Below are positions 41,063 through 45,867 of a DNA stretch of 64,000 nucleotides, in pieces (within the stretch, counting starts at the first letter, position 1; each line of letters begins with the position of its first letter). The stretch spans positions 124,001 through 188,000 of the forward strand of contig CAJNOJ010000046.1 of NCBI GenBank assembly GCA_905250025.1, given 5' to 3'. The notes beneath the pieces were generated by a model. The model saw nothing but the letters and a program-made list of their open reading frames with translations, was not told where the DNA came from and did not search any database. This stretch comes from Adineta ricciae (Eukaryota > Rotifera > Eurotatoria > Adinetida > Adinetidae). A program made the position numbers and the translations under genes.

Positions 41063-42164
41063 ATGACTAACCAGCAACTATCGCCACCACCCCGTGATTT
41101 TCTTTGTCCGATAACCCGAGAGATTATGCAAAATCCTGTGTTACTTATCGAAGACGTAAGTCGTTTATCCATTAGTTAAGCTTTAATTTAGTCTGATTTG
41201 AATTTTCCATCAGGGTCGTTCCTATGAATTGTATGCCTTGCAACATTGGTTACGCGATCATAATTCCTCTCCAATGACTAATAAACCTTTACGTGATCGT
41301 CGTTTTGTACATAATTTCAATTTGAAGAGTGCTATCGAAGAATATTGTACTCAACAAGAGAAACTCTCATTTGCTAATCGTTTTCTTTCGTTTAATATAC
41401 GTTCTGGTCGAATCCCGTCAGAATGGAATACTAAACCAACATTAAAGATTCGTCTGAGCCTTCTTGGCGGTTCCAATGTCGGCAAAACGACACTGGCACG
41501 TTGCCTTCAATATGGTGTTCAATCCTCATTTGTACATTTAAATACTGCAGCAACAGTTGGACCTGATCTTATCTTTTTCTATTTGGATCAATTGTATGAA
41601 AACAAATATGTTATTATTATTCAACTTGCTGATATACCTGGGATGGAACGATATGAATCATGTTGTGACAATCATTTTCGTAATTGTCATGGTGCACTCT
41701 TACTTGCAGATTCCACAGATATTGATTCGTTAGAACGTGCAGAACTCTATTGGTATAAGCAATTACAAACCAAAGGAAAAGATCATGTCGAAGCTATACT
41801 TGTATGTAATAAAATCGATCTGTTCGAAACAAACTGTGATGCGAAATATCGACGTATTTTCTTTCAACGTGCTGAACATTTCTCTTCGTCGCACAATATG
41901 TCTATCTACCATATCTCTGCCATACGTGGTGACAATATACAATCGATGTTCAAACAACTAATATTACGTATTCTCCAAAGCGATTCATTGTTACAACAAA
42001 TCAAAGAAAGTAGTATTGCTTATGACCAATCAACGAATCAGAAAGATTCAGCACGACGTGCATCGTCAATTCAACTTTCAATTCAACCGGCAACATCATT
42101 GTCATCGGTACATGATGATGATCAAGAAAGAAGTTCATCAGGGGCTTGCTGTAAATTTGCTTAG
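41063..42164 (+). CDS. U-box domain fused to a Rab-like GTPase
   Basis: Two exons, 41063-41155 and 41214-42164 (347 aa); the phase-0 intron splits the U-box. Residues about 12-75 are a U-box (DFLCPITREIMQNPV ... SYELYALQHWL ... SPMTNKPL), the E2-binding module of ubiquitin ligases. Residues about 105-290 are a Ras-superfamily G domain: P-loop GGSNVGKTTL, switch I ATVGPDL (Rab-like TIGVDF position), switch II ADIPGMERY in place of the usual DTAGQERF, NKID and the SA motif (ISAIRG). The protein ends ACCKFA, so the last four residues C-K-F-A form a CaaX box with a second Cys beside it. The catalytic Gln of switch II is Met, predicting weak GTP hydrolysis. One frame covers both domains, so the fusion is not an artefact of joining exons. 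Confidence 0.9.
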
Positions 42165-43451
42165 TTCCTTATTTTTTCTCTCTGTTTGTTTGTTTGAATT
42201 AGAAATCTTATGGGGCACGTATCAGTTTTGATTTATGTATATAAAATAAATATGAAGATTTTAAATTTTTACATAGAGAGAGCATGCTATATTAGTCACA
42301 GTCTATGATGTATCAGTATCAACATGTCTGTGACGGTCTATGAAGTTAATTGTGTCTAATTAGTATTGTCTGTCACGGTCTAGGACATCCAATAGTTCAA
42401 CGCGATAGTTTTCTATGTATTTTGATAGTAATTATGAAAAGTATTGAGAAGTGTATGGGGCAATATCAATTATGATTGCGTAGGATACACATTGGCAACG
42501 TTCCTAGCAAGTAATTTCTTAAAGATCGTGTTTAATTCGTCGATATATAGGTTTATTTCAAATGATGATCATTATATTCGTCAAGTATACAATGAATCAT
42601 ATTGTGAAAACGATGTATTTATTCCAATAAACCTGAGGAGGATGATGGTGAAGCACAATAGGCGCACATTGGGCATTTATTACCACCGATAGTCATATAA
42701 CTCATTTGGATATTGTCGCATGGTTGTTGAATTTGCATACACATTGGAATTGGACAGATATTAAGCTAGAGATGAAGAAGATGGGATTAGACCAGATCAT
42801 ACGGATACGAAATGCATTACTGATGACACTTACGGAAATGACGCTGATTTCTGTAGGAGGAGCACCTGGTTTAATCGAAGCTAGAAATGATCCAGCTAAC
42901 AATGCAATTGATTAATAGAGTTTAATAACTTACTTGGCTTAGCCCATGCACATACGAGCATATAGATAATGCATAAAAATGTTAGGATTGCTTTCATATT
43001 GCTTACTACTGTTTTATTCCAATCGAAAAACGAAAACTATGAGCGACAGTTTTCGAAGCCATTCGTATATATGGACGCTTGATGAGAATTACTTCAGCTG
43101 CAACGATCAATAATATTTTCATGTGGGAGTGTTGTTTTTCATTTGACTTGTCTTTGTATTTTTAGCACATTTTTTTATGACTGGCTTGAAAATCTTCTTC
43201 GTGGGTACAAACCTATTTGGTTATTTAATACTCGATGCTCTTCATCATGAATAGTGGCTTCGTAAAAAGCGCTCCTTTCATGATTGACAAATACGTTGCA
43301 CTTACCGCCACAATTTGTTTTGTTGTCAACAGCCGGATCACTTAGACAGTATCAGAATTACATCAATATTGTGAAATTTATTTTCAAGGCGAACACTTTT
43401 ATGATGTAGGTAAGAGTGCCTGTCTCACTTATTGTTATATTATACTGCAAA
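42165..43451. other. Intergenic 1.3 kb with decayed ORFs and short repeats
   Basis: Contains three related short motifs (core ACGGTCTA or ACAGTCTA) near 42295-42308, 42326-42343 and 42366-42384, and the broken ORF pair listed separately. Nothing else is recognisable up to the PARP-finger gene. Confidence 0.45.
42444..42915 (+). pseudogene. Possible decayed gene, two overlapping out-of-frame ORFs
   Basis: An 82-codon frame (42444-42692) and a second open frame (about 42651-42915) overlap in different phases. The second gives protein-like sequence (DIVAWLLNLHTHWNWTDIKL), and joining them needs a frameshift or an unusual intron. No family recognised. It could equally be chance open frames. Confidence 0.25.
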
Positions 43452-44019
43452 ATGCTAAAAAGATACGAAGATCACGATTTAGGAGAATCCGCAAGTCGGC
43501 GAGTGAGTTATCATTGTACAACAGATTATGCCAAATCTTCCAAATCAAAATGTCGACAATGCAATCGAACTATTGATCAAAATGAGCTGCGTCTAGCTCT
43601 GATGCTTCAAGACGACGAAGGCTATAAAAATACGGCTTGGATGCACTTCGATTGCTTTTGGAAACATCCTGAAACAGAAAAACTCGATGGTATTCACGAA
43701 ATTCACGCTTTCTCTAAGCTCAAACCTGAAGATCAAGAGAGGTAAAAATTGAATAATTAATACACGTGCAATAGATCGATAGAAGTGTTTTCGTATTTTT
43801 CTTAGAATATCAACGTCATTTGAAAAGTTGAAGACAGATGGGAAGATAGGAAAAAGAAGAAGGACGACAAAGAAGAAAAATAATGATGATGACGATGATA
43901 ATGAGTATGACGACGAAGATTTCGTACCAAAAAGTATATCGAAAGCGAAAAAAGGAACAAAGAAGAGTACGACAACAACAACAACAAATAAAAGAAAACG
44001 TCAAGCAGACGATGATTGA
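43452..44019 (+). CDS. Stand-alone PARP-type zinc-finger protein
   Basis: Two exons, 43452-43741 and 43806-44019 (167 aa). Residues about 18-90 form a PARP-type zinc finger: SSKSKCRQCNRTIDQNELRL with the first Cys pair, then the WMHFDCFWKH block with the His-x2-Cys pair. In PARP1 and DNA ligase III this fold senses DNA nicks. The rest is a Lys/Arg- and Asp-rich tail with likely nuclear-localisation clusters (GKRRRTTKKKN and TNKRKRQADDD). There is no PARP catalytic domain, ligase or BRCT domain. The normal length of PARP-family proteins is far greater, so this is an independent finger protein or a fragment that remained expressed. Confidence 0.8.
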
Positions 44020-44280: not shown

Positions 44281-45867
44281 ATGCGCTTAAATTCGATACT
44301 GTTGTTCATTGTGATCCTATTCTATTGTACGCATGGCCTTCAACTTGAATTCTATCCAGGAGCAGAATCTTTCCATCAAACTGGATCCCAGTTTAACGGC
44401 ACTGCTTGGTCAGTTACTTCTCAAGACCCTTCTGAGAGATATCTTACTTACGGACCGTATACAGTTGCATGGAATACGACTGTACCGTCGCGCGTCGATT
44501 TTTATATAGGTACTGATGATAATTTAGGTGATCCATGGAACGTCTTGACTGTTGATGTCAATGATGCAACTATGGATCATATCATAACGAGTCGAAATAT
44601 ATCACGTCTTGACTTTGGCTACCGAAATATACAGCCACAAATATTCTCTCTGTATTTCAATAGCACGATCGGACGTCAACTGGAATTTCGTGTTTTCTAC
44701 CATTGTTGCGGTCAATTTGTTCATTATAAAACAGTCGTCAGTCAATTAGATGGCGGTCCATTAGCCGATTTCTTTGCTGGACAAGCAGGATTAGAATTAG
44801 TTAGTTCATCAGTATTCCCTACGCCTCATGGCGATCCAAGTTCAACTATGTGGAATGTCGGTACATATGTAAAGCCTATTGATGGTCGATGGTATGTTTT
44901 CTACAGAGAAGGTTTCTATGCACCGACTCCTGATTTTTGTAACGGTATCGTGCCATTAACGCGTATTGCTGTTCGAAATTCAACAGATTATGGTAAAACT
45001 TGGTCGGAACCCGCTCCTGTTGCACTTCCAGGCAATTCGACATTCGATAATTGTGCTGCGCTCGACGGTGCACCTTTCTATGATAATGATACAGACACAT
45101 GGCACTATCTAGCACAATGTATTGGAAATAATCGGCGTTGGTCTCTTTGCCACTATTCAAGACCTGGATCTAATCCAATGGCAGGTATATTCACACCCAA
45201 TCCGAAAAATCCTGTTGTTCAAGGTGGACAATTGTGGAGTCGAATTTGTTCTGGCACAGGAAAACACTGTACGCTAACTATGTATGATGAAGGTACGCCT
45301 GAAATCGTACAAAAACTGAACGGTTGGTTCTACATTACTTTCCATGGTTGGGATGCACCGAATAATAGAGCAGCTCGTGGTATTGCGCGCACACGTGATT
45401 TCGTTATCTATGACGTCGCTGGCTACGATCTTCCTGATGATGCCATATTCTCTCCTCTGGATTGCAATGACTGGAATATCACGTGGAATCCGAAAAGTTT
45501 GTGTGTAGGTGGAGGAGAAGGCAGTATGGTTCGATCAGGAGATTATTTCTATCATTTAATCGAAGCACCCGATGGAACACTAAATTGTGATACGACATTA
45601 GGTGAACAAAATTGGGTGCTTGGTTTCCTGCGATCACCCACATTGGCTGCTCGATCAGGTGAATGGGAACAAATTCACTATAATCCAGCATTCAAACCTG
45701 AGAAAAAGTATGGCTGCGGTTTACAATACCATCGAGTTTTCCGTGATGGTAATGATTACTTCTTCTCGATGTTTGTTCTCGATTTCGGTGTTAACAATTT
45801 GACAATGAAGATATGGAAAGTGGTGCCTGGAAAGACATCTTTTCCTGTGATTGTTAGTTTTCCATAG
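44281..45867 (+). CDS. Secreted glycoside-hydrolase-like beta-propeller protein, intronless
   Basis: Single exon, 528 aa. An N-terminal signal peptide (MRLNSILLFIVILFYCTHG) is followed by a beta-sandwich-like region (about 20-150) and a region with the blade pattern of five-bladed propeller glycosidases (GH32/GH43-like). Examples are WYVFYREGFY, RIAVRNSTDYGKTWSEP, DTWHYLAQC, the acidic motif DEGTPEIVQKLNGWFYITFH and GEGSMVRSGDYFYHLIEAPD. The Glu in GTPEI sits where such enzymes have a catalytic or stabilising acid. There are several N-glycosylation sequons. No intron in 1.6 kb, in contrast with most neighbours. Exact family and substrate are unknown; horizontal acquisition is possible. Confidence 0.7.
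   Translation: MRLNSILLFIVILFYCTHGLQLEFYPGAESFHQTGSQFNGTAWSVTSQDPSERYLTYGPYTVAWNTTVPSRVDFYIGTDDNLGDPWNVLTVDVNDATMDHIITSRNISRLDFGYRNIQPQIFSLYFNSTIGRQLEFRVFYHCCGQFVHYKTVVSQLDGGPLADFFAGQAGLELVSSSVFPTPHGDPSSTMWNVGTYVKPIDGRWYVFYREGFYAPTPDFCNGIVPLTRIAVRNSTDYGKTWSEPAPVALPGNSTFDNCAALDGAPFYDNDTDTWHYLAQCIGNNRRWSLCHYSRPGSNPMAGIFTPNPKNPVVQGGQLWSRICSGTGKHCTLTMYDEGTPEIVQKLNGWFYITFHGWDAPNNRAARGIARTRDFVIYDVAGYDLPDDAIFSPLDCNDWNITWNPKSLCVGGGEGSMVRSGDYFYHLIEAPDGTLNCDTTLGEQNWVLGFLRSPTLAARSGEWEQIHYNPAFKPEKKYGCGLQYHRVFRDGNDYFFSMFVLDFGVNNLTMKIWKVVPGKTSFPVIVSFP

Follow-up and report, generated by a model that had tools for sequence, protein, structure and literature searches.

The closest described system to the protein considered here is TRIM23 (ARD1), a human protein whose single chain begins with an E3 domain and finishes with a small GTPase domain (PMC8358228, PMC5794181). 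According to PMC5794181, the RING activity of TRIM23 modifies its ARF domain and sets the GTP cycling of that domain. Multidomain ARF proteins with BTB or F-box domains likewise combine a GTPase with a ubiquitin-linked domain and are described as lineage-specific innovations; together with TRIM23, they have been presented as cases in which GTPases were repeatedly recruited into ubiquitin-dependent circuits (PMC8358228). Among Rabs, the large GTPases Rab44, Rab45/RASEF, and Rab46/CRACR2A-L carry extra N-terminal domains ahead of a C-terminal Rab domain (PMC8303950). Plant U-box proteins (PUB) are a further point of comparison, as the solved U-boxes closest to the one described below are plant-type. 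In the available text of one Rab survey (PMC3425129), the words “U-box” and “ubiquitin” do not occur, and we found no paper in the open literature that describes the fusion of a U-box with a Ras or Rab domain; database records of such proteins may exist unremarked. No relatives were found in viral contigs and prokaryote genomes, non-eukaryotic collections that are silent on other animals. The pairing is apparently undescribed, in agreement with the sequence-only reading, an earlier model-made note on this DNA, which knew of no described family with this architecture.

The gene lies in a window of 64,000 nucleotides from the rotifer Adineta ricciae, by which we mean the whole stretch of DNA that was analyzed. 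At 41063-42164 on the plus strand it forms a two-exon gene encoding 347 amino acids, which we call member A, with its ATG at 41063 and the last base of its stop codon at 42164 (Table 1). That a U-box and a Ras-superfamily G domain are joined in one protein, as the sequence-only reading proposed, is confirmed by Pfam matches to both domains, and the coordinates it gave are exact. The U-box match covers positions 2-72 of the 73 in the Pfam model. Models for Roc, Arf, and elongation factors likewise exceed their cut-offs on the G domain, with scores below that of Ras. The same reading, which did name the 58-nt intron, spoke of one open frame, a description that is loose for member A, where retention of the intron leads to a stop after 38 residues, and holds strictly for member D of the family (below), which is a single exon with one continuous frame through the U-box and the G domain. 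Exon 2 alone carries the later part of the U-box and the entire G domain. Because its sole methionine ahead of the P-loop is Met52, inside the U-box, a separate GTPase product would be hard to make from it. A structure prediction of exon 2 alone was uninformative (mean pLDDT 36). The AATAAA past the stop codon is weak as a polyadenylation signal, since the motif occurs at about its chance frequency in the window (135 occurrences against a chance mean of 117). Just downstream of the gene, at 43410-43742 (+), a frame encodes a zinc finger of the PARP type (PF00645, E 2.1e-16). A 528-residue uninterrupted frame lies at 44281-45864 (+); its start reads like a signal peptide, and it has no Pfam match at 0.001.

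Table 1. Features of the member A gene; positions are those of the window.
Feature	Positions	Strand	Remarks
Exon 1	41063..41155	+	Residues 1-31, with the start codon and the beginning of the U-box
Intron, 58-nt GT-AG, phase 0	41156..41213	+	Same place in B and C; absent in D
Exon 2	41214..42164	+	Residues 32-347, completing the U-box and carrying the linker, G domain, tail, and stop codon
U-box, residues 10-80, spanning the intron	41090..41360	+	Pfam PF04564, E 2.9e-13
Rab-like G domain, residues 112-285	41454..41975	+	Pfam PF00071 (Ras), E 5.1e-21; C46:165454-165975 in the genome search
P-loop GGSNVGKT, residues 116-123	41466..41489	+	
Met175 (ADIPGMERY), catalytic Gln position	41643..41645	+	
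C-terminal CCKFA, putative Rab-type CCXXX prenylation motif	42147..42161	+	Motif list in PMC9141697
AATAAA, possible polyadenylation signal	42245..42250	+	81 nt past the stop codon

When the whole genome (130,461,839 bases in 1033 contigs) was searched with protein A, four further loci matched it across both domains. These are member B on contig C97 (67% identical to A, 329 residues), member C on C380 (43%, 309 residues), and, on C377, member D (317 residues) and a near-copy of it, each 40% identical to A. There are thus four distinct members, A-D, plus one near-copy of D that bears a stop. Identity among A-D is 36-68%, and Pfam detects both the U-box and the Ras domain in all four, with U-box scores of 50.2, 63.1, 64.4, and 53.4 bits for A, B, C, and D against a curated cut-off of 21.4. 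The intron measures 47 nt in B and 58 nt in C, at the position shared with A; because member D is one uninterrupted exon, the fusion does not depend on the intron model. The U-box and Ras matches are separated by 94-106 nt at all five family loci. Outside these loci, no U-box/Ras pair lies less than 1.6 kb apart when all 57 U-box matches are compared with 56 Ras matches picked by eye among the matches listed. The underlying profile search gave 57 U-box matches and at least 174 Ras matches, with 150 of 427 Ras candidates scored; Ras matches that the comparison missed on shared contigs are more than 70 kb from any U-box. On contigs C81, C82, and C120, a weak U-box match occurs 1.6 to 7.5 kb past Rab matches. 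The frames on C81, the nearest case outside the family, are, in order, two Rab-like C-terminal frames, a separate 322-residue frame resembling a membrane receptor, and then the U-box frame, which by eye is presumably Prp19; separate frames stand between the two domains, and C81 is ruled out as a U-box/Rab fusion.

Two of the contigs also carry repeated stretches. At C380:56605-56860 there is a partial copy of member C, whose frame covers part of the U-box, reaches an ambiguous base, and soon ends. It lies in one of two stretches of C380 that are 94% identical over 3.4 kb, which reflect either duplication or an assembly effect. The D pair (C377:81181-82077 and C377:44908-45807) is arranged in direct order about 36 kb apart, and the surrounding stretches are 93% identical. 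Nucleotide identity between D and its near-copy is 97%, and codon 136 of the near-copy is an in-frame TAA. The estimated dN of 0.029 and dS of 0.036 show little constraint within the pair.

Between the C97 stretch and the window there are five collinear matches, namely the gene itself, three upstream of it, and one downstream. By this comparison A and B occupy collinear, diverged segments, a pattern expected from degenerate tetraploidy, which is reported for every bdelloid species examined (PMC7943196). We used codon-position counts to compare the members because Nei-Gojobori dS between them is undefined or greater than 2. Members A and B are identical at 73, 83, and 48% of first, second, and third codon positions, respectively, and agree at 25 of 76 four-fold sites. 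Identical residues number 57 of 71 in the U-box and 132 of 178 in the G domain versus 12 of 43 in the tail, indicating that both domains are conserved between A and B and that the tail is not. A tree was built from 25 U-boxes of the genome, namely those of A-D and 21 others drawn from 30 loci, with a long branch flagged elsewhere; in it, A-D group together with support of 88/85, which is moderate against the tree tool's own mark of 95/80 for firm support. The best other G domain in the genome is 25% identical to protein A. The grouping of the U-boxes, together with 36-68% identity within the family versus 25% outside it, favors one fusion event. On these comparisons we regard the fusion as real, old, and under selection, and probably of single origin.

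Among the residues invariant in the U-boxes of A-D are I17, W43, and P51, which we take to be E2-contact positions, and the best solved relative of the U-box of A is plant U-box domain-containing protein 12 (E 1.7e-12). The core positions are conserved, and E3 activity is predicted.

The G domain resembles that of Rabs and is divergent. Its invariant residues in A-D include K122, T145, D171, G174, K231, and D233, and every member retains the GK[ST] of G1, the Thr of G2, the DxxG of G3, and, at G4, the Lys and Asp. Members A and B alone carry the Asn of G4, where C has Thr and D has His, and at G5 all members have the SA of SAK without its Lys. These losses at G4 and G5 may weaken nucleotide binding. 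At the catalytic Gln position, A and B both carry Met, C carries Gln, and D carries Asn. The sequence-only reading took the replacement of the switch II Gln in A as a sign of a GTP-locked or slowly cycling switch; the ADIPGMERY motif is indeed present, but the variation at this position rules out a GTP-locked state as a family property and makes Met a trait of the A/B pair. When a profile of the four members was compared with solved chains, the best 60 of 228 matches were all Rab-type by name, one of them being labeled rabphilin-3A; for protein A alone, the best 60 of 480 comprised 58 Rab-type chains and 2 U-boxes. The RabF motifs take in the REP contact surface; over 27 of their positions, identity to the consensus is 33, 37, 48, and 30% for A, B, C, and D, and 78-93% for three Rabs. 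These motifs serve as a test for Rabs (PMC3192815). Among the worm proteins covered in PMC3504004, RAB-28, the most distant of the original Rabs, scores 48% RabF identity, and a borderline protein at 33% was retained for its C-terminal cysteine and tail motif. Member D has Trp at position 6 of RabF3, a residue termed Arf-like in the same source. The RabF1 Gly, which is missing in Ras and Rho, is present in A-D. On the G domain of A, the Pfam Arf model scores 36.1 bits (cut-off 22.3) versus 75.4 for Ras, and the NCBIfam small-GTPase model scores 34.6 bits, below its cut-off of 42.5. We describe the domain as divergent and Rab-like.

The C-termini of A-D are CCKFA, CC, CCL, and CC, with C343 and C344 invariant. 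Signals for Rab geranylgeranyltransferase include CC, CXC, CCX, CCXX, and CCXXX (PMC9141697). A prenylation-type tail with a second Cys, as first read in A, is thus found in all four members. Its reading as a CaaX box is not supported, and is replaced by Rab-type CC, CCX, and CCXXX endings across the family: CKFA is a poor CaaX because the second A is aromatic, and CaaX has been defined with a non-aromatic residue there (PMC3504004). The stretch that precedes the CC in member A is acidic, not basic. A REP-contact (CIM-like) pattern occurs in all four tails and is too short to mean anything. Prenylation of the CC tail itself is predicted.

We hold with middling confidence that the single gene encodes a membrane-anchored E3 ubiquitin ligase whose action depends on nucleotide state, built from a U-box and a divergent Rab-type G domain. 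The CC tail would be geranylgeranylated and tether the protein to a membrane, where the G domain in one of its nucleotide states would bind partners or substrates, and the U-box would recruit a charged E2 and ubiquitinate whatever is bound, perhaps the chain itself as well. Both GTP binding and cycling and the coupling of the U-box to the G domain are presumed, and action on Rab effectors or membrane cargo would be a matter of inference only. Counted against this reading are the loss of the G4 Asn in C and D and of the G5 Lys throughout the family, the poorly kept RabF motifs, the acidic stretch before the CC in A, and the little constrained D pair with its stop-bearing copy. That an E3 and a small GTPase could regulate one another in one chain is made plausible, without implying identity, by TRIM23, which shows such regulation (PMC5794181).

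The same precedent, in which TRIM23 is reported to modify its own ARF domain (PMC5794181), also lends itself to a self-directed ligase. Here the U-box would ubiquitinate the G domain of its own chain, to which it is tied by a short linker, and so set the lifetime or cycling of that domain. Such a mechanism would be compatible with the membrane-anchored, nucleotide-dependent ligase, and we consider it rather improbable. The G domain might instead no longer switch, and act to anchor a constitutive ligase to the membrane or to provide it with a scaffold. The replacement of the catalytic Gln in three of four members, of the G4 Asn in two, and of the G5 Lys in all four would fit this idea, as would RabF identities of only 30-48%. 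It is set against the P-loop, G2 Thr, DxxG, and G4 Lys and Asp, which every member retains, and against the constraint on the G domain between A and B, and we judge it unlikely. An annotation artefact, in which two adjacent genes were falsely merged, draws on the fact that the U-box of the window copy is completed only via the intron. But exon 2 runs from the interior of the U-box through the G domain, the intron place is shared by A, B, and C, and both domains are conserved in frame; such an artefact is extremely improbable, and the continuous frame of the intronless member D through both domains rules it out.

The Rab-like fusion is no isolated oddity, since several U-box fusions exist in this genome, this one among them. 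Ten U-box frames, taken from 30 loci among the 57 U-box matches of the genome, were scanned with Pfam: two have a kinase domain; a vWA domain, a TLDc domain, a poly(A) polymerase head, WD40 repeats, and an ankyrin match below cut-off occur in one frame each; and three have no partner domain. Five further frames resemble U-box kinases by reading alone, and some other U-box proteins seem, again by reading, to end in a membrane-spanning stretch. As in members A-D, the U-box of the kinase, vWA, and TLDc fusions comes first and an unrelated partner follows; these proteins differ from A-D in partner, and the U-boxes of the GTPase family form their own group in the tree. The sequences suggest a wider reshuffling of U-box proteins in the lineage, a subject on which we found no paper. 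It is possible, and we propose it only tentatively, that the family is an undescribed class of U-box ligases, prenylated and GTP-switched, whose Rab-like domain chooses membrane and substrate, one branch of a lineage-wide radiation of N-terminal U-boxes. If so, U-boxes joined to kinases, vWA and TLDc domains, membrane tails, and GTPases would provide bdelloid-like animals with one-piece, signal-gated ligases. As a separate observation on this genome, TGTGGG arrays occur in six contigs, a repeat known from Adineta vaga (PMC7943196), and with the collinear diverged copies they point to a bdelloid rotifer source; the reversed-pattern control for these is void, as a tandem array read backwards is the same array.

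How, then, does the family compare with the known systems? The large Rab GTPases share its order of domains, but their extra parts are EF-hands and coiled coils (PMC8303950), and no EF-hand is among the Pfam matches of protein A at E up to 1. The solved plant U-box chains that it matched have no GTPase part. The multidomain ARF proteins pair ARF with BTB or F-box domains, whereas the present family pairs a Rab-like domain with a U-box. TRIM23 consists of a RING, two B-boxes, a coiled coil, and an ARF domain, in contrast to the U-box, Rab-like domain, and CC tail of A; neither RING nor B-box families are among the 12 Pfam matches of protein A at E up to 1, and no ARF chain is among the best 60 of the 228 solved chains matching the four-member profile. 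The protein is also compact, with only 309-347 residues across the members, and the natural variation among them at the catalytic Gln position (Met, Met, Gln, Asn) permits a direct test of whether ligase output responds to nucleotide state. By analogy, the protein most likely works like TRIM23, with its RING and ARF domains, without being TRIM23. If its two halves are coupled, it would stand beside TRIM23 as another chain that unites a GTPase with a ubiquitin ligase, built from a different E3 domain and a different branch of the GTPases.
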